From a virus: 64,000 nt of DNA. The notes under the pieces were generated by a model. The model made no database searches. It was given only the letters and a program-made list of their open reading frames with translations, and was not told where the DNA came from. Location: IMG/VR virus record IMGVR_UViG_3300018984_000002, positions 62,001 through 126,000 of that record; one strand, 5' to 3'. Positions 29,385 to 57,596 of the stretch are shown one piece after another. The translations under genes and the position numbers were made by a program. The number at the start of each line of letters is the position of its first letter. The stretch's first letter is position 1.

Positions 29385-31409
29385 CTACTGTGGAACAGAC
29401 TCTAATTCGGCAACTACTTTAGATAACTTTGTGTAGTATGATCTTAATTCAGTTAAATCAGCTTCAGGGTTTAAGGGTTCTGGGTATGGTTCTAACTTAA
29501 TGTTCTCGTATTTAGTAGATAATTCTCCAATAACTGCACGGGCTTTATCTTTTTGTTTTTGTTCAGGGTCTTCTCCTTGATCTAAGCGAAACAATAAAGT
29601 ATTTACAAACTCTTCTGGATTCCATTTAATAGTACCTTCAACATCTCCTTCGATACTTGCGTTGTATCTTGCAAACTCTTTAAAGCGAGGTGGTTTAGAT
29701 ACACGTAATACTTGTGAGTCTGTTCCATCTTTATTTGTTACAAGACTAGTTTCAATAGCAATATCAAATTCGTATTCAATACCATCTTTGAATACGGGTG
29801 CTAAACCTACTTTCAGTGCTTTTGTTTTAGTCTTTTGTGTTTTCCAGTCTAGATACTCTTCTTGAATAGTTTCACTCTTACAACGAAATGTGCAAATAAC
29901 GTGACAAGATTTAGATGAAGAAATAGTCTCAATAGCTTTATTTACTTTAGGAGTAACAATGTTCCAAGCTTGTTGGTTTTTAGCTTGGTTGCCGCCAGTA
30001 AGTTTATTTATTTCATCTAATGCACCATTTGTTCCTGCCCAAAATTTAGATGTTGTATCAATAATAATTACGCCATCTTTTCCTACATGATTTTCAGCAG
30101 ATTTAAATGCATCTACTAAAGTATCCATACTATAATCCCCATCAAGGATTAAAGTATCAAAATCAAATCCAATACCATCTTCACCCTTTGCGTAGATACT
30201 AGAAGTACCATTTTCTGTGTCAATGACAACTATAGGTTTACCACGAGATAGTAGTGTGGCTATCTGCAAGGACGAGTAGCTGTTATGAGTAACGATATAA
30301 TTATCAGTTACATACATCTGAGAAGGATGGTCTATAGTAATACACTGTGCTTCAGATTGACCTATATATTCTATTTTTCGGATTTGGCGATAAGGTTTGT
30401 ACTTTGTTTTAGGAGTATAATTTGCTAACTTGCGTGAAACAGTAAAAGGGATTATTGCTGGGGGTAACTTTAGAAATAAACGATAATTCTTTTGTCCTTC
30501 TTTTTTCTGCCCCTTATAAGTATAGGAAGGAATACGATCCGAAAGAGCTACTAACCCTCCTAATGATTCTACTAATTCCTTGACATTATAGGCTAATTTC
30601 TCAGAGGAAGTAGTATATTCTAACGTGTGTCCTCCGGTATATCCATCAGTATCAAGTAAACCTTGAAGTACAGCAATTCGAGAATTTTTGTCTGCTGATA
30701 AATATTCAGGAGGAATAAATTTACCAATAGATAAATGTCCCATTAATCCGTATCGCCTTAAAGTACTCGTGACTGGATTCTCGCCACTTTGAGCTTTTCG
30801 ACGTATAAACCACGTAATGGGATTTAATTTATCCTGACGTAATTCAGTAGTGTCTGGAAGTAATTTTCTTACTTTATCTATAATTTCAGTATCTGGAGTA
30901 CAAATACCGATACAGTTTTGAGAGATATTTCCGTCTCCTAAAATGACTCCCAATAAGTAAGGGTCTAGCTTTAAAGAGATAGGATTAAATTGGATATCAG
31001 GATTTACCAGAGGAATATAATGATTAGGTCTTGTTTCTCGTAAATACAAAGTATCCTTAATTTCTAAGAGTGTTTTTACTGTTCCTGGTTTTTTAGTAGC
31101 TCGATCTAAAACTGTCTGGGTAAACCATAAATGATCCTCAGTACAGTCAGTGAAGCTACCGTCATTACAGTAAACTCGGTATATATCCTTGTTTCCTTGA
31201 GGATGAATCTGTAGAATTTCTGACACAGAACCATCTACAGAAATAATTTCATCCCCTTCTTCTAAGTCTCCCATGGCAACCCAGCCAGAAGGGGTTAAGA
31301 CTTTGCTGTATAAAGGTTGGGCTTTACCACTTCCGCTAAGACCATATAAACAAATACGCGCTTTTAACTTACGCCGTGTAGCTACTTCAAATTCAAACTT
31401 TTTCGCCAT
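29385..31409 (-). CDS. RecA-fold ATPase (Sak4/AAA_24-like) interrupted by an intein
   Basis: 674 residues before splicing. N-extein residues 1-29 end in GLSGSGK; the intein is 30-376; the C-extein begins SYSSLQIA. Joining them rebuilds Walker A GLSGSGKS. The C-extein holds VVIDTENG, Walker B VIIIDTTSKFW and a CTFRCKSE segment, typical of the small RecA-like ATPases (Sak4 type) that pair with single-strand annealing or replication functions. Mature length is 327 residues. Its start lies in an operon with 31393-31677 (overlap 17 bases). Confidence 0.85.
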   Translation of the reverse strand: MAKKFEFEVATRRKLKARICLYGLSGSGKAQPLYSKVLTPSGWVAMGDLEEGDEIISVDGSVSEILQIHPQGNKDIYRVYCNDGSFTDCTEDHLWFTQTVLDRATKKPGTVKTLLEIKDTLYLRETRPNHYIPLVNPDIQFNPISLKLDPYLLGVILGDGNISQNCIGICTPDTEIIDKVRKLLPDTTELRQDKLNPITWFIRRKAQSGENPVTSTLRRYGLMGHLSIGKFIPPEYLSADKNSRIAVLQGLLDTDGYTGGHTLEYTTSSEKLAYNVKELVESLGGLVALSDRIPSYTYKGQKKEGQKNYRLFLKLPPAIIPFTVSRKLANYTPKTKYKPYRQIRKIEYIGQSEAQCITIDHPSQMYVTDNYIVTHNSYSSLQIATLLSRGKPIVVIDTENGTSSIYAKGEDGIGFDFDTLILDGDYSMDTLVDAFKSAENHVGKDGVIIIDTTSKFWAGTNGALDEINKLTGGNQAKNQQAWNIVTPKVNKAIETISSSKSCHVICTFRCKSETIQEEYLDWKTQKTKTKALKVGLAPVFKDGIEYEFDIAIETSLVTNKDGTDSQVLRVSKPPRFKEFARYNASIEGDVEGTIKWNPEEFVNTLLFRLDQGEDPEQKQKDKARAVIGELSTKYENIKLEPYPEPLNPEADLTELRSYYTKLSKVVAELESVPQ
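30282..31322 (-). mobile_element. Intein with LAGLIDADG homing endonuclease
   Basis: 347 residues. Block A starts with Ala (AQPLYSKVLTPSGWV), an Ala1 intein rather than Cys1/Ser1. Block B is CTEDHLW. Endonuclease blocks are LLGVILGDG and VLQGLLDTDGY, and the C-terminal splice blocks end ...CITIDHPSQMYVT...YIVTHN with Ser as the first extein residue. All elements needed for splicing and homing look intact. Insertion at Walker A is a very conserved site, so the intein blocks ATP binding until excised. Confidence 0.9.
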
Positions 31410-44236: not shown

Positions 44237-45349
44237 TCAGCGAACAGGACAAGATCCTTGACAATCTGCTTCTAAATCATGAAGTTCTTCATTTACTTCG
44301 TATTGTTGTAATAAAGTTAATAGTTGAGCTTCGTTAAGAGTAGGAATACTCTTTTTTATTTCATCATACTCTTCTTTGGTGCAAGCTTCATTTGGCATTT
44401 GAGGGTGAGAACATTCTGGAGAATTAGGATCAAATCTTTTTAGTAAAGCTAAACCAATAACATAATCCCAATTATCGTACAACCATTTAGTAACATCTTC
44501 CCATTCATGATCTGCAACTGTAATGGTGTTACTAGTATTATGTCCATCCTTTGTATAGTTATTCTGAATAAGCTTATAACGCTCAAGTTGAACTAAAGCA
44601 GATTCATCTATTGCGCGAATAGGTGTTGCTCCTTTTACACCAAACTTAAACACCCAAGTAGTACATTCTTCTGAGAAAAGAAGTTCCTCATTAGACATAT
44701 TAAGCCTTTTGTTTCGGACATCCGTGTATTCCTTGTAGCTCATAAGATTGTTGTACAGACTACCTAGATCAGTGTAATAAGCTTCTTCAGATAAGTCTGG
44801 ATAATAATCACTACCTTGACTATTTTCTGGAGTAGGAATCATACCAGCTTCGTACAAAGCAGTAGCCAAAGGGTCAGACTTACTAAATCGAATTCGGCAT
44901 ATTTGATAAGGTGCATACCCACGACTAATTCCAGCTGATACTCCTGGTAGCTTACTGAGTGTTCCATTAGGTTTAACTAAAGTAACTCTTGCGGAACGAG
45001 GAATACCTAAGTGCTTGTGGTATATGTCTGCTGCTTCTCGAATTGTCTTTGATAAAGCTTGATAAAAAAGTCTTGTCTCAAACTCATTCCAACCAAGTAA
45101 ATCTAAAGCGTCTACAACACCTGTAATGTCTACTCCTAATAGCCTGTCTCGTTTTTGAACTTTATCCCATTCAGGATGCCACTGGTCAGCTAAAGTTTGA
45201 CGGCTACCTACTCGTGTTACCAAGTAAGCTGTTTGACTTAGTTTGAGATAGTCAACTAAATATTTACCTGTGTTCTCATCTTTAAAGATATGTTCCATTA
45301 AATTAATGGAAGTTAAATTGCAACTTTGTTTATCGTCTAATGCAGCTTC
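44237..45349 (-). CDS. nrdJ: Class II ribonucleotide reductase, exon 3
   Basis: Begins GAAGCTGCA... directly after the predicted intron 2 end (ωG at 45350), coding EAALDDKQSCNLTSINL and running to ...CQGSCPVR. CNL supplies the redox Cys 11 residues after the active-site Cys, and the terminal C-x3-C is the shuttle pair. Together with 46724-47957 and the five-base exon 46521-46525 the coding length is 2352 bases (783 residues), in one frame. The first in-frame ATG of this piece (45298) is internal to the mature protein. Confidence 0.8.
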   Translation of the reverse strand, partial: EAALDDKQSCNLTSINLMEHIFKDENTGKYLVDYLKLSQTAYLVTRVGSRQTLADQWHPEWDKVQKRDRLLGVDITGVVDALDLLGWNEFETRLFYQALSKTIREAADIYHKHLGIPRSARVTLVKPNGTLSKLPGVSAGISRGYAPYQICRIRFSKSDPLATALYEAGMIPTPENSQGSDYYPDLSEEAYYTDLGSLYNNLMSYKEYTDVRNKRLNMSNEELLFSEECTTWVFKFGVKGATPIRAIDESALVQLERYKLIQNNYTKDGHNTSNTITVADHEWEDVTKWLYDNWDYVIGLALLKRFDPNSPECSHPQMPNEACTKEEYDEIKKSIPTLNEAQLLTLLQQYEVNEELHDLEADCQGSCPVR

Positions 45350-46525: not shown

Positions 46526-46723
46526 CATCTATGTTAACTACAGTTTCATTTGTTATAGCTGTAGATCGGACTATACCACCATCTTAAATAAGATGCCCAT
46601 TGGTAGTCTCTAGCGGCTTCTAGATAATCTAGCTATCCGTCGGGATTGTCTACTTCTAGATGTTCCCCGATATTCTGGGTTTTCATAGTTAATCACTTAA
46701 CTATGCCGCCTGGTTGATTATTG
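46526..46723 (-). other. Group I intron 1 of ribonucleotide reductase (no ORF, 198 nt)
   Basis: P1: exon CCGU with intron GCGG, U-G at the cut. P4: TCGGGG with TCCCGA (near 46665 and 46640). P7 elements AGAGACTAC (R, about 46602) and GGTATAGTCC (S, about 46570). P8 hairpin CATCTTA/TAAGATG and P9 hairpin CTACAG/CTGTAG follow; the intron ends with G at 46526. Compact, of the type seen in cyanobacteria and phages. Confidence 0.8.
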
Positions 46724-47957
46724 ACGGATTACATCCCTTTACAGGACTATTAGCTAGTTTCTGTGAATTACCTATAATCCAGAAACCAGGATCACCTATC
46801 TGTTTTATCTGCTCAATATCTTGAGATAATTTTTCATAACTTGGACGTTCATAGTACAGCATTGAGTTATTACTAAGTACTCGTGTCGCAGAATAAATAG
46901 ACTTGTTTGGGTCAGTAAACAAATTTACTTTCGCGTCTACCAACTCTTTATTTTCTGGAGAAAATAAACCAATCATAGCCGTTCGGCGTGTGCCACCTGA
47001 GACTACTCCTTCTCCAATACAATTGGCTATATCTAGGCAACAAATAGGAGTTAGCTTATAATTGTTAATGGTTAAAAAGCTTGCAATTTTATTAAACATT
47101 TTTTGCAAAGCTTGATGACCACTTGCACGTCCACCAAACGTTTTAATACGAGTTCCGGCAGGTCTTACATTATCGTAAATAAAAGTAATATGTTTGCTCT
47201 GACTAAATGTAAGAATGCTTAAGTATAAACGCAGAGCATTACACCAGCCTTCTTTACTATCCCCAACATAAATATCAAAAGTATTTCCAGAATCAATTGT
47301 CGCAATAAAATCTTTGTCATTAAGAATTAAGTCTTCTTTTGTGTATGTTCTCAATGACATTTCATCAATTTCATTGTACCAAGATACAATCAATTCAGTA
47401 TTAGATTTTGATTCATCTTTTCCAAGATAATTATAATCATCGTGTTTAATAGTTGCTGGGTACAGCTTGGGCAAATTAGCAACTGTTGTATCTTCTATAT
47501 TAAATCCAGTACCAGCACCTAATAGTAGCCAATAAAAGATTTCACTAAAAGAACTAATACTATCAATTAGTCTTAATGTGCAATTCCAGTTAGCACTAGA
47601 ATCATATTTAGTTATTGCAGTATTCGCAATCCAATAACTACGTCCAGCAGCAAAACCACGTAAATTAAATAAGCAATCAAACAGTAATTTAGCTTCTTCT
47701 TTTTTACTATCTAAACTACTAACAGTATCTAAGCTTAAACTATATTCCACAACACGCAAACAAGTTTCTGCAAACTTTTCACGGCGATTTAGTTCTGGAA
47801 TAAAACGACTATATGTGCGTAGATAAACTACTACTCCAAGTTCACCAAATGGTGGTTCAATTTCTAAGTAAGGTTGATAAAAATCCCAGTCAATATATTG
47901 GGGTTGTTGTAAATTAAAAAATGTTTTACAACTTTCTAATGATAATAGTGGTGTCAT
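46724..47957 (-). CDS. nrdJ: Class II (B12-dependent) ribonucleotide reductase, exon 1
   Basis: 411 codons plus one base. Without splicing the frame reads on 21 bases to a stop at 46701 (418 residues). Segments RGFAAGRSYWI, LLGAGTGFNIED, VRPAGTRIKTFGGRASG, GGTRRTAMIGLFSP and GDPGFWIIGN match the adenosylcobalamin-dependent triphosphate reductase pattern. It ends at AATCCGT, the start of the NPC triad. No NrdB subunit is nearby, consistent with class II, which needs cobalamin instead of an iron radical subunit. Overlaps the DHFR stop. Confidence 0.85.
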
Positions 47958-50365: not shown

Positions 50366-50962
50366 CTACATTGGTGGAAATGTCGGAGCAATAGGAGTCC
50401 CACGATGAACAATAATAGGTTCGTCTTCTTCACCGTCTAAGCCATTACCAAATTCATCTATGTCTGTGTCTTCGAGTTCTTCTTCTTCTTCGTCGGTATC
50501 CAAATCTGGCACACGTACTATATTGTTAGCAAGCTCATTTTGCACAGCCATTAGTAGTGGGTCATCATCTCCAACTGTAGCTACAGGTTCATCAATAATA
50601 CCTTGTAGTTCATTTGCAACTTGTTGCAGATTATCGTTACCTTTTGTTTTCTTTTGAGGAATCCATTTAGATTCCAAAATTGCACTAAATCGTCGCAACA
50701 ATTCTACTGGTTCTGCTTTAAATTCTTGCAGTTGTACTACCATGTCTGCATTAGATTCAACACCCAAAACATACAGAATGCTAATTGCTAGTTGCAAACG
50801 CTCTTTTGTTCCTTGTTCTGCAACAGAAGTAACGTAATTAATTAATGAACGTTTTGCTGGTAGTTTTACGGTGTCTTTTCTTACATACTGAGATGCCAGT
50901 TCACGAGCTTTCTCTTCAGATTGACCAGACTGAATTAGTAGGTTGTATAGGTTAAGATCCAT
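50366..50962 (-). CDS. Acidic protein at the end of the ubiquitin-like cassette
   Basis: 198 residues from the ATG at 50962; an in-frame TTG two codons earlier exists. First 110 residues helical; then a very acidic stretch (DTDEEEEELEDTDIDEFG, about 150-170) and a Pro-rich end. Co-transcribed 30 bases after the E1-like gene. Not recognised: a substrate, adaptor or scaffold in the same system are all possible. Confidence 0.5.
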   Translation of the reverse strand: MDLNLYNLLIQSGQSEEKARELASQYVRKDTVKLPAKRSLINYVTSVAEQGTKERLQLAISILYVLGVESNADMVVQLQEFKAEPVELLRRFSAILESKWIPQKKTKGNDNLQQVANELQGIIDEPVATVGDDDPLLMAVQNELANNIVRVPDLDTDEEEEELEDTDIDEFGNGLDGEEDEPIIVHRGTPIAPTFPPM

Positions 50963-50992
50963 GTTCAATTTCCTTGTTGGTTTATTTAATAA

Positions 50993-52156
50993 CTAGAAAG
51001 GAGCAACAGCATTTAATTTTGTTCTTAATGCTTCTCTTTCAGTTGAATCTAAGGTCAAATCATTATAGTACTTATTTAGTAACTCTGTTGGAGAAGCTAA
51101 TTGTACTTCTGTGGTGGGATTAGGTAAATCAGGTACTAAAGCGGGTGAGCTACTTGGTGGATTAATTTTTTCTTCTTCTTTTTTCTCAGCTATATGATGA
51201 GCAAGTAGCCCTTTACTTTGAGTTCTGTTTACATATTCTTTAGATATGTTTTCTAAGTAACTCTTCATCAACTTTTCTGGATCTACTAAAGTAGGCGAAT
51301 CACTTGGCGGATTGATTTCTTTTTCCTCAGTTGTTTCTTCCTTTTTCTCAGCTAGTTTTTGCTCTAATATCTGTTGTCTTACCTCTACTAAATCAATAAG
51401 TTGACCCACAGGTTGCATTTGTCTAGTAGTCAAATCAAACTTTGTAAGCGGCTGAAATTTAAGCTGCTTAAACAAACTAACAAACTCATTAAACATCAGT
51501 GTAGCTACTTGCTGATTCGCCATCACAGTCTGTGGCTCTGTCTGTTGCCGTTCTTGACAACTCGTTACACTAGGGTCTGCATTACGCACGTTTTCAAACA
51601 AAATACGAGGGTCTTGTCCTAATAATACTACAGTATCATCTATGGTTGTCTTGATGCAAGTTGTCACTTGCCCTGTATATTCTGTGTTGCCACCATCAAT
51701 AACAATAAAGTCTCCCTTATATTTCGGACCTTCATTTACGTATTTCCTTTCTTTAGCATCAAAAACACCCACAAGTTCTGACCAAATAGCATTCCTTGCC
51801 CTTGCCGAATCTACACACACAAACACTAGTATCTTTGCTTGCTGCTCTGACATTACTCCAATGTCTAATGGAAGGCTATCTACATCCAATTTAACGGGCA
51901 ATGCTTCGACATACCCAAAACCGCTGGTGGCAATAAACTTACGTTTGATTACTTCAACCTTGGGTTTACCAGCTTCAAGCCGATCAAAGTCTTGACGTTC
52001 AGCATTTCTATCCTCAATGATATCATCATCAGCTAGAATTACACGCCGGGGATTAAAATGTGAAAATGGTATATACTTTGCTAATAACTGACACAATTGA
52101 CTACCAGTTCCACCTACTCCTACCACGTAGACGCTATACTCACTTAGTCTTAACAT
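50993..52156 (-). CDS. E1/ThiF-like ubiquitin-activating enzyme (PRTRC ThiF type)
   Basis: 387 residues. Nucleotide loop VVGVGGTGSQ (11-20), acidic strand end ILADDDIIEDRNAERQ with conserved Asp and N-x2-R-Q (40-55), VCVDSARARNAI (114-124), and Cys200 in TSCQERQQTEPQT, the likely catalytic Cys. This is the E1 fold that adenylates the C-terminus of a ubiquitin-like protein. The C-terminal tail (~265-375) has two copies of AEKKEE...INPPS-x-SP-x-LV. One base after the E2-like gene, so co-translated. Confidence 0.8.
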   Translation of the reverse strand: MLRLSEYSVYVVGVGGTGSQLCQLLAKYIPFSHFNPRRVILADDDIIEDRNAERQDFDRLEAGKPKVEVIKRKFIATSGFGYVEALPVKLDVDSLPLDIGVMSEQQAKILVFVCVDSARARNAIWSELVGVFDAKERKYVNEGPKYKGDFIVIDGGNTEYTGQVTTCIKTTIDDTVVLLGQDPRILFENVRNADPSVTSCQERQQTEPQTVMANQQVATLMFNEFVSLFKQLKFQPLTKFDLTTRQMQPVGQLIDLVEVRQQILEQKLAEKKEETTEEKEINPPSDSPTLVDPEKLMKSYLENISKEYVNRTQSKGLLAHHIAEKKEEEKINPPSSSPALVPDLPNPTTEVQLASPTELLNKYYNDLTLDSTEREALRTKLNAVAPF

Positions 52157-52157
52157 A

Positions 52158-52901
52158 TTAATCTCCTACTCGTTTTAGACTGTAACCATCGAAGTGCATT
52201 GTATTTTCTTCGTCTGTATACCTTTGTGGATCTCCATAAGGTATAGTTTCAAACTCGCCAGGTTGAAAATGTTTGGGGCTATCTGTATCTAAAATCCACC
52301 TCAACTTTGTTTCATTATCGTTTCCAGAAGGGTCATAATCCCAGTATTGTTCTCTGGGTGACCAGTTTTCTACTAAATATCTTAAATCTTCTCCTGAAAA
52401 ATTATAGTCATCGTTGCGTACACAGTTAAAAAAATGACTATGTATATCAACTAAAAAAGTATGATCGTCTCTACTACCTGAATATTCCCCTATGCAGAAG
52501 CTACCATCGGTGTCTACATTTCCTATGTACATAGGTAGCAAGCGAGTATTTAAATCAAACTCACCATTCGCTTCTGGATGAATACAATAAAAATAAGGTA
52601 CATTACGCTTTAAAACCATTACGTAAGGTGGTACTCGTCTAGCTATATACTCTATTTTGTTTTCTGGTTTATACCCAAATCTACAATCATAATTCTGTAT
52701 TACCTTTGTACCACCTTTGCAGATATTCGACGTGTGATATTTACATTGTCTGCAATGTGTGTAGTAACTTTTTTGAGATGTTATAGTTTCGTCAGACAAT
52801 ATTTTTAATACAACATCTACTTCGTCGCACAACATTGCAACCGTTTGAAGTTCTCCGTACAATAAACCTTTTGCGTTGTTTGGAGTTCTAAATCTAGTCA
52901 T
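52158..52901 (-). CDS. E2-like (PRTRC protein B-like) protein, copy 2
   Basis: 247 residues. C-x2-C-x8-C near residue 50 (CRQCKYHTSNIC) is shared with the neighbour. The core segment PYFYCIHPEAN, LLPMYIGNVDTDGSFCIG, then FFNCVRNDDYNF resembles PRTRC protein B, whose N-V-x2-D-G-x-x-C segment corresponds to an E2-like fold. Cys in that segment could be the thioester site. Paralogue of 52905-53669, three bases apart. Confidence 0.6.
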   Translation of the reverse strand: MTRFRTPNNAKGLLYGELQTVAMLCDEVDVVLKILSDETITSQKSYYTHCRQCKYHTSNICKGGTKVIQNYDCRFGYKPENKIEYIARRVPPYVMVLKRNVPYFYCIHPEANGEFDLNTRLLPMYIGNVDTDGSFCIGEYSGSRDDHTFLVDIHSHFFNCVRNDDYNFSGEDLRYLVENWSPREQYWDYDPSGNDNETKLRWILDTDSPKHFQPGEFETIPYGDPQRYTDEENTMHFDGYSLKRVGD

Positions 52902-52904
52902 TAT

Positions 52905-53669
52905 TTAGTCTCCCATTCTTTTCAATAAAAATCTGTGAAATACAATTAAATCAGGGTTATCCAAATCTGTGTTGAAACTGTTGTTAAATAACGCAGATTC
53001 GTAAGTTCCTGGTTCAAAAGTTCGCCAATTACTATTCGAGTTTATTCTCATTACTCTTTTGAAAGAGTTTAAACCAGGAATTCTTTTAAAATTTCCATTA
53101 TTAGCTTGAAACTCAGGCAACCACTGTTTAACTAGTTCTGAAATTTTTAGATAACTATAGTTATAATCATTATTACGTGTACAATTCAAAAAATGAAGAT
53201 AATGTTTTTCTAAGAAGAGACACTCATTACTTAAATCTTCTAAGCCAGATCCAGTACAAAAACTTCCATCAGTATACACATTACCCATCATAATTGGAAG
53301 TAGATTTGTGTTTAGAGATAAAGAATCTAAGTTTTGCCCTGGAGCAAAGCAATAAAAATAAGGTTCATACAATCCTTTTAAAACCATTAAATGCTGCGGT
53401 AGAGTCTTAGGTACATATTCAGTTTCTTTCAATCGTTTTGTTGACTTAAAACATCCTTCCGATAATTTCCTTAATCCACCAACACAAGTTTCTGTTATAT
53501 ACTTTTCACAAGGTCTACAAAGAGAATAAAAATCTTTCTGGCTAATATCATATTCTCCAGTATTTACTTTAAATACCACATCTACTGGGTTACACCACAT
53601 TGCTAAGTAGCGATTTTCTGCGTTATATAATAACTGTTTGCAATGTTTAGGAGTTTTAAATATTGCCAT
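52905..53669 (-). CDS. E2-like (PRTRC protein B-like) protein, copy 1
   Basis: 254 residues from the ATG at 53669 (MAIFKTPKHCK), which matches the paralogue start (MTRFRTPNNAK); overlaps the JAMM stop. Same order of features: CRPCEKYITETC, LKGLYEPYFYCFAPG, LLPIMMGNVYTDGSFC, FLNCTRNNDYNY. Divergence between copies is large, so duplication is old and both are probably needed. E2 function is inferred from the cassette. Confidence 0.6.
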   Translation of the reverse strand: MAIFKTPKHCKQLLYNAENRYLAMWCNPVDVVFKVNTGEYDISQKDFYSLCRPCEKYITETCVGGLRKLSEGCFKSTKRLKETEYVPKTLPQHLMVLKGLYEPYFYCFAPGQNLDSLSLNTNLLPIMMGNVYTDGSFCTGSGLEDLSNECLFLEKHYLHFLNCTRNNDYNYSYLKISELVKQWLPEFQANNGNFKRIPGLNSFKRVMRINSNSNWRTFEPGTYESALFNNSFNTDLDNPDLIVFHRFLLKRMGD

Positions 53670-54618
53670 TGTAGTCAAAGTTAAATTTATTTAAATTAGC
53701 AATAGTTTCTTCGATATCTTTTTGACTGTATTTAGTAAGTAAAGCTTCGACTATCTCATCTAAAGAATAGGTTGTAATCACTTCACTTAAATACATCTGA
53801 CCTATTAGGTTAGTAGAATCCCACAGATATTGTGAATTATTTACAGTCTTAGGTACATAGCCCACTTGACCTTGTAATAAGTTGTAATTTTTATATTTAG
53901 GTACAACAGGCACAAAACGGCTTACTAAGTCATGCACCTTTGGAGAATAACTGGCGTTGTAAACTAGTATTTCTTCACCATCTGAAATACCCTCAACAAT
54001 TTCACTAACAGGTATATCTAATCTTTTGTTTCGAGTTCTTAAACCATCATTTACAACTACATTAGTTCGTAGTGTAAATACAGCTTTTTTGTCTTTACTA
54101 CTACGCCAACAAGAAAATATACCATAGCCACAAGGTACATCCAATTCACCTGTACCTGGACGATTTGGAAATCCATTGTCATCAATCCCACTTGGACCTG
54201 GTATATCGAATGGATGTACATGAAACTGCCAGAGGGTTAGCCAATTAATATCCGGCAAACTAACATCTTCTCCAGTCTCTAGATCACGAGCAATTTTATA
54301 TTCAAATGTATCAACACTAGCCCCCGCAATAGTTTGAGTAGGAACAAATACTTTATGTGACTTCGTGTTGGGATTATAGACTACTCTTGCGTGTACTTCT
54401 AAATTTTTACTAGCATAATCATAAAAAAACTTAGATAGTTTCTTGAATAAATAATCTGGAATTTTAGGGATACTAGGGCTTGGCTCAAAATGTTCTAATG
54501 CACTTTCGTCTAAGCTATTTGGTTCAGGTGTAGGGTCAAGCGCTAAGTAATGCCCATATGGTTTGATTTCTTTAAAACAAATACGCAGCCCATTTGATAG
54601 TCTTATTGTGTTAGACAT
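53656..54618 (-). CDS. JAMM/JAB metallopeptidase (deubiquitinase-like)
   Basis: 320 residues. WQFHVHPFDIPGPSGIDD contains the JAMM zinc motif HxHx7SxxD (His133, His135, Ser143, Asp146). Glu74 in NLEVHARVV is placed as the general acid. Such enzymes cut isopeptide bonds or process ubiquitin-like tails; PRTRC protein A is of this type. Residues before 55 and after 190 are unassigned. It overlaps the first E2-like gene by 14 bases. Confidence 0.8.
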   Translation of the reverse strand: MSNTIRLSNGLRICFKEIKPYGHYLALDPTPEPNSLDESALEHFEPSPSIPKIPDYLFKKLSKFFYDYASKNLEVHARVVYNPNTKSHKVFVPTQTIAGASVDTFEYKIARDLETGEDVSLPDINWLTLWQFHVHPFDIPGPSGIDDNGFPNRPGTGELDVPCGYGIFSCWRSSKDKKAVFTLRTNVVVNDGLRTRNKRLDIPVSEIVEGISDGEEILVYNASYSPKVHDLVSRFVPVVPKYKNYNLLQGQVGYVPKTVNNSQYLWDSTNLIGQMYLSEVITTYSLDEIVEALLTKYSQKDIEETIANLNKFNFDYNGNI

Positions 54619-54654
54619 AGTATTTAAAATATAAGTTGATTAGACATGAGTAAT

Positions 54655-54700
54655 AGTCCGAAATAATAAGGTTTAGTGGTTTCCCTATTTATTTCGGACT
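54655..54700. repeat. Dispersed-motif hairpin 7
   Basis: 12-bp arms AGTCCGAAATAA (54655-54666) and TTATTTCGGACT (54689-54700) with a 22-base loop, 14 bases after the stop of 54714-55430. It splits the cassette into an upstream Ubl part and a downstream enzymatic part. Confidence 0.75.
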
Positions 54701-54713
54701 TTTTATTGTTGGT

Positions 54714-55430
54714 TTAAATTAATCCCAATATAAAAGCCAAAGCTTCATCTAAATAGATGATGTCACTACCAACATAAATAGTTTGATTTTTACTGTTCTT
54801 TGTGGGTTCAGACTGTTTACCCATTCTGTAGTATTGTGCAGCTTTCTTTCTTAATGCATCTAAATGAGTATTATCTAGTTTCTTTAAACGTAAGTATTGT
54901 TCTGCTGTAACTACTAAATCGTCTGCGTAATTATTTTTATTTTCTTCTTTTAAAACATCAGCACAACCCGGATGTATAATACCTGCTAATTCTAGCTGTT
55001 GTTTCTCTTCTTGTAATTGATTTAATTTCTCGTGATCTACAGCCAAAACATTTAATTGTTGTTGCATCTGTTGCATTAATTCTAAAAATGTATCTGGAAT
55101 ATTAGTTACTTGTTTAGCTACTTTTTCACATTCAAGGAAATACAATCTAACTTTATTCCCTTGTTCTGTTTTACTTAACATTGCCCACATTTTAAAACAC
55201 TCTATTGTTAGAGATATTTTTTCTATGTTGGTTGAACCTATTTCTCGCTCCACAGTATTGTGGACTGAACTAAAATCCACACCTTCAATAAAACCAGAAT
55301 TTAAAAATGCACGTTTAGCACTATCTTTCCTGGAATAACCTAACCAAACAAAAGCGGCATCAAAATCAACTGGAAATTGTTCGTCAGATTCTACTAACTG
55401 TTTTGCAACATCTAAACTAAATTCAGTCAT
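54714..55430 (-). CDS. MSV199/antirepressor-like regulator
   Basis: 238 residues. MTEFSLDVAKQLVESDEQ, FVWLGYSRKDSAKRAFL, LTIECFKMWAMLSKTEQG form an N-terminal MSV199/AntA-like DNA- or protein-binding domain, as at 28329-28766. A coiled coil follows, then HPGCADVLKEENK and LDALRKKAAQYYRMG shared with the Bro protein (11755-12483). Probably a regulator located inside the cassette region. Confidence 0.6.
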   Translation of the reverse strand: MTEFSLDVAKQLVESDEQFPVDFDAAFVWLGYSRKDSAKRAFLNSGFIEGVDFSSVHNTVEREIGSTNIEKISLTIECFKMWAMLSKTEQGNKVRLYFLECEKVAKQVTNIPDTFLELMQQMQQQLNVLAVDHEKLNQLQEEKQQLELAGIIHPGCADVLKEENKNNYADDLVVTAEQYLRLKKLDNTHLDALRKKAAQYYRMGKQSEPTKNSKNQTIYVGSDIIYLDEALAFILGLI

Positions 55431-55431
55431 A

Positions 55432-55788
55432 TTATTTCGGACTCCGTACTCGTTTTATATTTAATGTTTTACCAAAATTTGTATGTGCTACAACCACATA
55501 TTCTTGTACATTATTTGCATTCATATGAGAAGCATCAATTCCTGCAAGAAAAGGATATTGGTTTAATAAAGACTGTCTGCATTTTTCAACAGAATCTCCT
55601 TTAACTAAATCAATAGTATGTATGTCTCTATCTAGCATATATGCCATCATCCTTTTCATTTCATTTAGACCATCTTGAAATGCTTTTCCAGTAATTAAAG
55701 TCAGAATAGCTTCTATTGAGAATTCCATAACTAAGCTTTTATCCACTACTACTTTTTCATTAATTTTCCCAAACCGTAAAATTAACAT
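55432..55788 (-). CDS. Hypothetical protein
   Basis: 118 residues. It overlaps the next gene stop by 29 bases and precedes the regulator by one base. A repeat copy (TATTATTTCGGACT) covers its last codons. Helical and Met-rich centre (MKRMMAYMLDRD). Not recognised, but in the cassette operon. Confidence 0.45.
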   Translation of the reverse strand: MLILRFGKINEKVVVDKSLVMEFSIEAILTLITGKAFQDGLNEMKRMMAYMLDRDIHTIDLVKGDSVEKCRQSLLNQYPFLAGIDASHMNANNVQEYVVVAHTNFGKTLNIKRVRSPK

Positions 55789-55999
55789 CTTCTATTTGTT
55801 TAGAAGCTATTAGCTCTAAATCGTCTTGCAGTTGTTCTGTTTCAACATTATCAAAGTCTTTATCTAACTTGATACTAGAAAATTGGTTTATTAATTTAGC
55901 TGCCGCTGGTTCTATGTATTTCTTATCGCAGTATTTTTTGAATTCTTCTTCTGTAACATAATATGTTTTATGTATTAAAACTTTAATTACTTTAACCAT
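55760..55999 (-). CDS. Hypothetical protein
   Basis: 79 residues (MVKVIKVLIHKTYYVTEEEF...), beta strand then helices, acidic. Similar layout to the next gene (VxxxLxKxxxVTxEEFxxY), perhaps a distant duplicate. Function unknown. Confidence 0.45.
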   Translation of the reverse strand: MVKVIKVLIHKTYYVTEEEFKKYCDKKYIEPAAAKLINQFSSIKLDKDFDNVETEQLQDDLELIASKQIEDVNFTVWEN

Positions 56000-56001
56000 A
56001 A

Positions 56002-56232
56002 TTAACTATGTACGATTAAGTTTATTTCTTCCTTTTGTTTGTCTACCAAGGAAGTTAGTTCATCTAATAGGCTAGAATTTATAACATCTCTAGCATCCTC
56101 AGCTAAAAAGAAATCAGAGCTATAAACTCTGGTAGCTACATCCCCATATCCATTTGTTTTTAAATAAACTAAAAATTCTTCGTATGTTAAAACAATCTTT
56201 TTAGTTAATGTAACTTCTATCATGTGTGCCAT
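56002..56232 (-). CDS. Hypothetical protein
   Basis: 76 residues from ATG 56232 (or 56223, MIEVTL). IEVTLTKKIVLTYEEFLVYL parallels KVLIHKTYYVTEEEFKKYC of its neighbour and both end in EE(I/V)N-x-(I/T)V. Two bases apart. Function unknown. Confidence 0.45.
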   Translation of the reverse strand: MAHMIEVTLTKKIVLTYEEFLVYLKTNGYGDVATRVYSSDFFLAEDARDVINSSLLDELTSLVDKQKEEINLIVHS

Positions 56233-56245
56233 TTCAATTCCTAAA

Positions 56246-56285
56246 TTAAAAAAGAAAACAGAGTAGAGCCTAAACCCTACTCTGT
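56246..56285 (-). terminator. Rho-independent terminator
   Basis: Stem ACAGAGTAG / CTACTCTGT (56258-56266, 56277-56285) followed on the minus strand by TTTTCTTTTTT. It lies after the second Ubl gene, so the Ubl genes can be transcribed separately from the enzymes. Confidence 0.75.
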
Positions 56286-56315
56286 ATTAACTAACCTAGA
56301 CAATAAAAAAATATC

Positions 56316-56699
56316 TTAGCCAGCAGTACCACTGGATTGTTGCAAAGAATATTCACTGTCTTCGTCTACAGTTTCTTCTGCAACTTCAGTATAAGCACTA
56401 GCATTGTTTGTTTTAGTATCCAGAATCGTCAATTCATTTACATTAACAGTCAAGCCTAAAAGCTTAACTGCTTGTGCAACAATTTCACGCACACTAGTAC
56501 CTTTCTTGGTTTTGATTTCTTGTGAATTAAAATTAACACTAACTTTGACAGTAATGTCACCATCCGATTCCGAGACTTGAGATACTTGTGCAGTTACGCT
56601 TTCAGTATTTTCAGTAGGCAAAGAAATAGAATCACTGTTATTACTAACGTTAGTAGAAGCAAACTTAGAAAAGAAATTAGAGAAGATATTGTTAGACAT
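56316..56699 (-). CDS. Ubiquitin-like protein, copy 2
   Basis: 127 residues from the ATG at 56699 (MSNNIFSNFF), matching the paralogue; an ATG at 56753 lies in a hairpin and is rejected. Shared N-terminal segment FSNFFSKFASTNVSNNSD, linker, then a beta-grasp-like domain ITVKVSVNF, KKGTSVREIVAQAVKLLGLTV, NELTILDTKT, ending ...SLQQSSGTAG. The terminal Gly fits a Ubl processed or activated at its C-terminus, though there is no Gly-Gly. Two other copies of this pattern are absent. Confidence 0.6.
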   Translation of the reverse strand: MSNNIFSNFFSKFASTNVSNNSDSISLPTENTESVTAQVSQVSESDGDITVKVSVNFNSQEIKTKKGTSVREIVAQAVKLLGLTVNVNELTILDTKTNNASAYTEVAEETVDEDSEYSLQQSSGTAG

Positions 56700-56734
56700 T
56701 TGAGTTTTCCTAGAATAAAGTAAAAGTAAAAGTG

Positions 56735-56771
56735 AAAAAGAAAGCATAGCCAAGTAAAATCTCAGCTATGC
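56735..56771 (-). terminator. Rho-independent terminator between Ubl genes
   Basis: Stem GCATAGC / GCTATGC (56744-56750 and 56765-56771) followed on the minus strand by TTTCTTTTTC. It separates the two Ubl genes, so each may be regulated separately or by read-through. Confidence 0.65.
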
Positions 56772-56800
56772 AAAGCTAACCTAATTGAACTCAACCTACC

Positions 56801-57184
56801 TTAACCTGCTGTACCACTAGATTGTTGTAGTGACAACTCTGTATCTGCATTTACAGGGGATTCTGCAACTTCGGAATATGCATTTGCCACATTTGTTTTA
56901 GTGTCCAATAGAGTAAGTTCGTTAATACTTACAGTCAAACCCAGCAGCTTCAAACCCTGAGCTACAATATCGCGGATTGGTGTACCTCGCTTAACTGTGA
57001 TTGGAGTCGAGTTAAAATTAACGCTTACTACAACTGTGATTTCATCAGAGTCCGATGTACTAGGAGTTTCAGTTACTTGAGCTGTAATAGATTCTGTGTT
57101 TTCTGTAGGTAAAACAACATCGCTATTGTTACTAACGTTAGTAGAGGCAAATTTGGAGAAGAAGTTGGAGAATACGTTAGACAT
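56801..57184 (-). CDS. Ubiquitin-like protein, copy 1
   Basis: 127 residues. MSN(V)FSNFFSKFASTNVSNNSD, then VVVSVNFNSTPITVKRGTP, RDIVAQGLKLLGLTV, NELTLLDTKTN and the same terminal SLQQSSGTAG as copy 2. Closely related duplicates in tandem. The N-terminal extension is conserved, so it is probably functional. Fold assignment is inferred from strand/helix spacing and from the neighbouring E1, E2 and JAMM genes, not from a matched profile. Confidence 0.6.
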   Translation of the reverse strand: MSNVFSNFFSKFASTNVSNNSDVVLPTENTESITAQVTETPSTSDSDEITVVVSVNFNSTPITVKRGTPIRDIVAQGLKLLGLTVSINELTLLDTKTNVANAYSEVAESPVNADTELSLQQSSGTAG

Positions 57185-57251: not shown

Positions 57252-57596
57252 TTAAGCTGCTTGCGCTAGATACAAGTCCCATAACTCGTCTTTAGATAAT
57301 AACCCTGGTTTACGGTGTAGTATAGGTGCAATGAAGTCCGAAAATAATAGGGATTCTTGCTTTGCCCCATTTATTTCGGTCACTCTTACATCTTCGTCTG
57401 GACTACCTACACATAGCGAGAAATACCCCAATCCTGTAATGACATACACAGCTTTTGGATTACGGCGAACAAACAGGTACAGTGATTCATTGTCTAATCC
57501 ATTGCAGACGCGATACAACCATTCAATAGTGACAGGATTTTGGGCAACTTCTAACCGGAGGGAGTTACCATTGTGCAATAATTCAATAGCTTGCAT
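57252..57596 (-). CDS. Hypothetical protein upstream of Ubl genes
   Basis: 114 residues, beta-rich first half, not recognised. A dispersed-motif pair (57337-57349 and 57372-57378) lies inside the gene. Likely leads the Ubl operon. Confidence 0.45.
   Translation of the reverse strand: MQAIELLHNGNSLRLEVAQNPVTIEWLYRVCNGLDNESLYLFVRRNPKAVYVITGLGYFSLCVGSPDEDVRVTEINGAKQESLLFSDFIAPILHRKPGLLSKDELWDLYLAQAA

Follow-up and report, generated by a model that had tools for sequence, protein, structure and literature searches.

Ubiquitin-type tagging machinery is known chiefly from eukaryotes and from the defence of bacteria against viruses, and the locus considered here raises the question whether a phage may carry such machinery for its own use. 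It occupies positions 50366-57184 of a stretch of 64,000 nucleotides (hereafter, the window), which comprises bases 62001-126000 of the 127110-base IMG/VR record IMGVR_UViG_3300018984_000002 (a contig of 127 kb). An earlier note had described the locus as a phage-borne cassette for ubiquitin-like conjugation and deconjugation, and this reading is supported by the homology of its activating enzyme (E1) and its JAMM peptidase, by the more weakly matching proteins that resemble conjugating enzymes (E2), by the predicted topology of its ubiquitin-like proteins (Ubls) and by the conservation of the set in a sibling phage. In our opinion, the cassette is quite probably a phage-encoded module for Ubl conjugation and deconjugation, which descended from the PRTRC ('6d') enzymes or shares ancestry with them, as judged from sequences and structure models. 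The gene set, the E1 and JAMM homologies, the intact reactive residues and the conservation in the sibling are evident from the sequences themselves. The genes and adjoining elements are as follows.

56801..57184, minus strand: Ubl1, 127 amino acids, flexible N-terminus, predicted beta-grasp-like domain at about 48-121, C-terminal SSGTAG
56744..56771, minus strand: terminator-like hairpin with T-run, 3' of Ubl1 (sibling equivalent at L094 8455-8487)
56316..56699, minus strand: Ubl2, 127 amino acids, 74% identical to Ubl1, C-terminal SSGTAG, start ATG 56699
56258..56285, minus strand: terminator-like hairpin with T-run, 3' of Ubl2 (sibling equivalent at L094 8948-8974)
53656..54618, minus strand: JAMM peptidase related to PRTRC_A, with Glu74, H133xH135, S143 and D146
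52905..53669, minus strand: E2-like protein 1 (E2-1), predicted catalytic Cys in GNVYTDGSFCTG, Cys-rich insert C-x2-C-x7-C...C
52158..52901, minus strand: E2-like protein 2 (E2-2), candidate catalytic Cys136 in GNVDTDGSFCIG, Cys-rich insert with C50, C53, C61 and C73
50993..52156, minus strand: E1/ThiF enzyme with GVGGTG, D43, D45, R54, K66, D116 and candidate catalytic Cys200
50366..50962, minus strand: acidic cassette protein, which adjoins E1 also in the sibling phage
57252..57596, minus strand: 114-amino-acid protein, encoded upstream of Ubl1 here and in the sibling (36%)

All open reading frames (ORFs) named in the earlier note were found in their places on the minus strand within 50366-57184. 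Transcription runs from Ubl1 and Ubl2 through four further genes to JAMM, E2-1, E2-2, E1 and the acidic protein; those four genes (56232-54714), which separate Ubl2 from JAMM, are an addition to the earlier description. The close packing described for the enzyme genes (spacings of -14, +3, +1 and +30 bases) holds if internal ATG starts are taken for E2-1 (from 53669) and for the acidic protein (from 50962). The tandem of Ubl-like genes ending in Gly also stands, with the start of Ubl2 corrected to ATG 56699, which makes it 127 amino acids long, like Ubl1.

The enzymes and the sibling phage

Judging by its sequence, the E1 is a clear relative of the bacterial PRTRC ('6d') enzyme, as had been proposed. 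Its best NCBIfam model is PRTRC_ThiF (E 4e-14), at 52.5 bits against a curated cut-off of 144.75, a value that was not attained in any of the seven phage records examined. A local profile of 76 PRTRC ThiF proteins, built with the window left out, retrieved it at 5.5e-34 in a search of all phage ORFs, the next of which scored 0.26. The protein retains all 25 invariant columns of the PRTRC ThiF alignment, and the residues invariant across its phage and plasmid relatives are GxGGxG, D43, D45, N51, K66, D116, R121, the GN-GQ block and Cys200, the last being kept in the sibling phage as well. The C-terminal tail (approximately 265-387) is unique and bears repeats. In the E1 tree the phage members fall in several places and the branch of the window protein is too long to be placed; a single-protein pattern scan of IMG/VR with E1 gave no match.

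The JAMM protein, likewise, is a clear relative, in this case of PRTRC_A. Pfam and NCBIfam models did not match it, and the local PRTRC_A profile recognized it with E-values of 3.2e-9 in the window phage and 1e-13 in the sibling; HHalign with two sequences gave a probability of 96%. H133, H135, S143, D146 and R184 are invariant with the PRTRC_A relatives and the upstream Glu (Glu74) aligns; the set of Glu, HxH, Ser and Asp is complete. More generally, the GxGGxG, Cys200, HxHx7SxxD and N-V-x2-D-G-x2-C elements were all confirmed, at alignment columns that PRTRC homologues conserve. The window JAMM is 58-60% identical to the sibling JAMM, with all reactive residues kept, and an IMG/VR pattern scan with it recovered the sibling phage; tblastn of JAMM, Ubl2 and E2-2 against isolated phages found no match.

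The sibling (IMGVR_UViG_3300041964_000014, 111188 bases) is broadly syntenic with the window phage, their capsid and terminase proteins being 79% and 68% identical, respectively. Its cassette has the order Ubl-Ubl-JAMM-E2-E1-acidic without intervening genes. From this arrangement it follows that the acidic protein, which occupies the same position in both phages (identity of 28% across the full alignment and of 36% within the BLAST segment), is part of the unit, that the four genes separating Ubl2 from JAMM are additional, that the duplication of E2 is specific to the window phage, and that the cassette can do without the long E1 tail. Between the two phages E1 and JAMM are 55-58% identical and the E2, Ubl and acidic proteins 25-37%; the latter, therefore, evolve fastest in the cassette. 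Each enzyme profile ranked the expected gene first among all ORFs of the window phage, which is more than chance would give, and the cassette is, by its conservation, a maintained unit.

As for the two adjacent E2-like paralogues (39% identical to each other), the proposed motif and an E2-like predicted fold were found, and the profile score is weak: with the local PRTRC_B profile, E2-2 is the first among all phage ORFs at 0.0044. The single E2 of the sibling scored 3.7e-4 with Pfam Prok-E2_D (20.7 bits versus a 25-bit cut-off) and 4e-4 with the local profile, and HHalign gave 46% for the relation to PRTRC_B/Prok-E2_D. In a 20-sequence alignment of E2 proteins the only fully invariant positions are the first Met, N128, C136 and G138. 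The AlphaFold model of E2-2 (mean predicted local distance difference test score, pLDDT, of 52; core 68-76) contains strands at 84-90, 93-98, 101-107 and 120-123, followed by the Cys and then by a helix at 148-160. This predicted order of elements is that of the E2 core, which we regard as support and not as proof. In Foldseek searches with the model about 20 of the 43 matches were E2 enzymes, Rad6 being the first, with no E-value below 0.5. The four Cys of the insert (C50, C53, C61 and C73) are invariant in all three E2 proteins of the window/sibling lineage, and the insert may bind zinc. IMG/VR pattern scans with E2-2 and with the alignment of the two E2 proteins gave no match.

The ubiquitin-like proteins and the proposed pathway

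The strongest argument for the identity of the Ubls is comparative and is provided by their C-termini. The four Ubls of the two phages are 31-38% identical between phages and share 21 invariant columns, among which are all of the final five (SGTAG); for randomly placed columns, the chance of such an invariant tail is 8e-5. Only three of 180 phage ORFs end in G-x-x-G, two of them being Ubl1 and Ubl2, and the known PRTRC Ubls mostly end in G-x-x-G, too (GTKG, GVKG, GNKG, GEKG). The Ubl1/Ubl2 pair shows differences at 75% of synonymous and 19% of nonsynonymous sites and has, therefore, been under purifying selection. The proposed beta-grasp domain is matched by the predicted topology: the AlphaFold model, made from two sequences, has the order strand-strand-helix-strand-strand-strand with a core pLDDT of about 60-78, and its top Foldseek matches in the PDB were SUMO, kindlin/FERM, RBD, UFM1 and a bacterial Ubl from a Ubl-deubiquitinase complex (E 0.1-0.5). 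The beta-grasp fold and the E2 fold are, thus, supported by models, more weakly than the E1 and JAMM assignments. A match to PRTRC_C sequences, for which a profile search had been suggested, did not materialize: comparison of the window Ubls with the PRTRC_C profile gave no match. An IMG/VR pattern scan with the two-Ubl alignment gave no match.

Two further leads were abandoned. A reverse search with a four-Ubl profile placed the N-termini of PRTRC_A proteins and the poly-Ubl protein of phage KLEB27-3 on top (E about 0.02, column shuffles being negative); the register is doubtful and the matches are related to one another, so little weight is given to it. The 'WYL' and 'flavodoxin' matches of the family scan were sub-threshold noise.

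Each Ubl gene is followed by a hairpin with a T-run, which agrees with the separate terminators described earlier; the sibling has equivalents, and the stems are the longest found in the cassette region. A hairpin of its own for each Ubl gene fits separate, and probably higher, expression of a modifier that would be consumed. A sigma-70 promoter scan of the cassette region returned chance-level results only.

Several observations weigh against the conjugation/deconjugation module. The window E2-like proteins lie under the curated cut-offs, the best domain of E2-1 reaching just 0.066, and the alignment supplied to AlphaFold for E2-2 already assumed E2 homology. The Ubl model has a mean pLDDT of 57 and no PDB match below E 0.1, and the Ubls match neither the PRTRC_C and Prok_Ub models nor the local PRTRC_C profile. 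Finally, the Ubl genes are 1.7 kb away from the enzyme genes in the window phage, being adjacent to them in the sibling. Considering the weak individual E2 and Ubl scores, one could suppose that these are unrelated small phage proteins which happen to stand beside a ThiF-like enzyme and a JAMM protein. We regard such a chance resemblance as very improbable, as gene order, motifs, sibling conservation, the SGTAG tail, fold searches and the whole-phage ranking in two phages agree independently.

The pathway that the conjugation/deconjugation module could perform is as follows. The E1 would bind ATP, adenylate the C-terminal Gly127 of Ubl1 or Ubl2 and load the Ubl onto Cys200; an E2-like protein would then take over the Ubl on its Cys (Cys136 in the case of E2-2) and join it to a lysine or another nucleophile of the target. 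The JAMM metallopeptidase would cut the bond between Ubl and target and recycle the Ubl. Since both Ubls terminate in the mature Gly as encoded, their processing should not be needed. Sulfur-carrier operons (of ThiS, MoaD or CysO type) likewise combine an E1 of the ThiF type with a JAMM protein and a small protein whose last residue is Gly (PMC1779556), so that sulfur-carrier chemistry might be considered instead of protein conjugation. It is, however, improbable here, because the cassette contains E2-like proteins, even two of them, in which the Cys is conserved, the E1 is closest to PRTRC_ThiF and not to ThiF/MoeB and has no rhodanese domain, the tail is GTAG and not GG, and no biosynthetic partner gene was seen among the genes examined.

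Relation to PRTRC and to antiviral defence systems

We know of no function assigned to the PRTRC/6d systems. For the type 6d operon, which is the nearest known system to the window cassette, a Ubl relay was predicted by Iyer et al., 2006 (PMC1779556). The window cassette resembles PRTRC in its related E1 and JAMM and, with weaker scores, in its E2-like proteins, all with the same invariant residues, in its unfused genes and in a small Ubl that ends in Gly and has a G-x-x-G tail. In contrast to PRTRC, all its scores are below the curated equivalog cut-offs, its Ubl is not a recognisable PRTRC_C, and it has two Ubls, two E2 proteins, a Cys-rich E2 insert and a phage location. The gene orders differ as well: Ubl-Ubl-A-B-B-ThiF in the window versus ParB-E-C-F-B-A-ThiF in PRTRC. 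ParB_N was found in neither phage (the positive control was detected), and models of PRTRC E and F had no match in a search whose positive control was not detected. The suggested relatedness to PRTRC holds for E1 and JAMM, probably also for E2, and fails for Ubl sequence, ParB/E/F partners and gene order. Considering the cut-offs, the order, the missing partners and the Ubl sequence, the cassette is not a strict PRTRC member; on the evidence at hand, it would nevertheless work like PRTRC.

The Bil (ISG15-like) anti-phage operon is a four-part set of Ubl, E2, JAMM-type peptidase and E1. Its genes are, however, bacterial defence genes, and PRTRC models give the enzymes of the window their highest scores; PADLOC models matched neither the Ubl nor the E2 or JAMM proteins of the cassette, a dedicated Bil profile not having been run. 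As to the cyclic oligonucleotide-based antiphage signalling system (CBASS), its Cap2 protein is a fusion of E1 and E2, and a separate Ubl is absent. In the window E1 and E2 are separate ORFs, and the PADLOC E1-E2 models match weakly and only in the E1 part (3.6e-5). CBASS Cap2 and Cap3 perform E1-E2 transfer chemistry and JAMM-type removal, respectively (PMC10097602). Models of CD-NTase had no match among the ten proteins scanned.

These likenesses bear on the possibility that the cassette counteracts Bil- or CBASS-type Ubl defence of the host. The JAMM peptidase would free phage proteins of host Ubl, and the E1, E2 and Ubl of the phage would compete with the host pathway or re-route it. Ubl conjugation is indeed used by bacteria against phages (PMC10097602), JAMM expansions of Borg elements have been proposed to counter such tagging (PMC12660748), and the E2 and Ubl proteins evolve far faster than E1 and JAMM (25-37% versus 55-58% identity), as in an arms race. 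On the other hand, a peptidase acting in counter-defence would need no complete Ubl, E2 and E1 set of its own with a conserved tail; moreover, the host of the window phage is not established, hence no target system can be named, and the PRTRC relatives sit on plasmids without a known link to defence. We consider counter-defence a tentative explanation.

Related cassettes and possible targets

At least seven further phage lineages carry related cassettes, which in two cases include poly-Ubl genes. PRTRC-like sets were found in Bacillus phage KLEB27-3, the fecal phage scaffold MT835919 (unverified), the IMG/VR contigs L013-L018, Salmonella phage Arash, Vibrio phage D69, Burkholderia phage BgVeeders33 and Acinetobacter phage ME3. 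They share E1 and JAMM with the window cassette, and mostly an E2-like gene and a Gly-ending Ubl, but the Ubl is mostly of the PRTRC_C type, the E2 is single and the E1 is not specifically close to that of the window. The gp199 of KLEB27-3 (L006:3691-4440) consists of four tandem Prok_Ub/PRTRC_C units, each ending in GVKG before the next Met, and adjoins relatives of PRTRC B, A and ThiF. Vibrio phage D69 encodes a tri-Ubl of 263 amino acids (L088:3421-4212), whose three units end in TGTKG, followed by E2, JAMM and an E1 that is apparently split in the annotation. The Ubl of Arash (L087:107-307; 66 amino acids, ending in RTGTKG) lies in a frame different from that of the annotated gp251c, and the frame given in GenBank is apparently the wrong one. 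Poly-Ubl proteins occur on bacterial contigs, too, as in Anaerolineae, where proteins with two or three PRTRC_C-like Ubl domains (L069:4857-5654, L071:4779-5633) are encoded near PRTRC B, A and ThiF genes. In two viral contigs RVT_1 reverse transcriptase genes lie near the PRTRC-like cassette (L013:11379-12413, L014:5731-6834).

With somewhat less confidence than in the assignment of the window cassette, we find it fairly likely that several tailed-phage lineages run a ubiquitin-type modification of their own during infection, with single, tandem or poly-Ubl modifiers, an E1, an E2 and a deconjugase, the window lineage being distinguished by a Ubl family outside the known models, a Cys-rich, possibly zinc-binding E2 variant and a duplicated E2, the set forming a conserved component of the phage genome. 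If so, ubiquitin-like conjugation would serve phages as an instrument of their own, besides being used in defence against them. The PRTRC/6d systems were predicted to be ubiquitin-like in 2006, and the complete sets of cultured phages (KLEB27-3, Arash, BgVeeders33, ME3) allow the function of the pathway to be tested directly, through the genetics of these phages and the proteomics of infected cells. In the open-access literature, to which the search was limited (subscription papers were not searched), no paper combining PRTRC with ubiquitin-like and no description of phage cassettes of this kind was found; the main text of a jumbo-phage survey (PMC7824862) does not describe such a cassette.

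As for the substrates, DNA replication/repair machinery would come first in our view, followed by host takeover or counter-defence and then by virion parts. In many loci of Oscillospiraceae (e.g., L007:1679-2761 and L007:7144-8004) a DnaN-like clamp gene overlaps the end of PRTRC ThiF and a Rad52 gene follows the E2 gene, which suggests a link of PRTRC to DNA replication and repair. A target among replication/repair proteins, reminiscent of PCNA ubiquitylation and SUMOylation and compatible with the conjugation/deconjugation module, is a possibility about as open as counter-defence. It is favored by the presence of DnaN nearby in 26 Oscillospiraceae loci, often directly after the PRTRC E1, and of Rad52 near E2 in most of 31 loci, by the Rad52-DnaN pair upstream of the PRTRC cassette on a Rossellomorea plasmid, and by the repair endonuclease UvdE approximately 2 kb upstream of the cassette in both the window and sibling phages. 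However, neither DnaN nor Rad52 could be recognised in the window phage, the counts from Oscillospiraceae are not independent, since they come from elements related to one another, and gene proximity is merely a lead.

A virion role, with the Ubl or the enzymes packaged or the Ubl joined to head or tail proteins, is rather unlikely. Purified particles of Arash yielded peptides of Gp246, Gp247, Gp248, Gp249 and Gp251 (PMC10585845), which, by GenBank numbering, include E1, JAMM and E2; besides, the Arash and D69 cassettes are near tail-spike genes, and that of L017 is beside the terminase. Nevertheless, the Arash proteome comprises 116 proteins including metabolic enzymes, which makes carry-over likely, its numbering partly disagrees with GenBank, and the window cassette is far from structural genes, in the half devoted to replication and nucleotide metabolism.

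The record to which the window belongs is that of a tailed phage, since the terminase large subunit, the major head protein and the portal were identified, together with a possible head maturation protease. The capsid protein is nearest to those of the freshwater Pseudanabaena phages Pam2 and PA-SR01 (31%), and 17 ORFs match these phages at 24-42% identity; despite the core genes in common, Pam2 and PA-SR01 have no E1 and no convincing cassette. In the window phage the cassette sits in the minus-strand half together with DNA replication and nucleotide genes, namely those of a dihydrofolate reductase-like protein, thymidylate synthase, B12-dependent ribonucleotide reductase and UvdE. The ribonucleotide reductase gene looks split in the window phage, where two neighbouring ORFs (44237-45298 and 46701-47957) each match a part of this enzyme and correspond to a single ORF in the sibling. 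An AAA_24 ATPase (29385-31409) is apparently interrupted by an intein-like insert carrying a LAGLIDADG domain. About eight late-region proteins (record positions 15871-40000), with none in Pam2 or PA-SR01, share an N-terminal motif, roughly ...FARKKGSKDKxKRK, which is possibly a packaging or processing signal.

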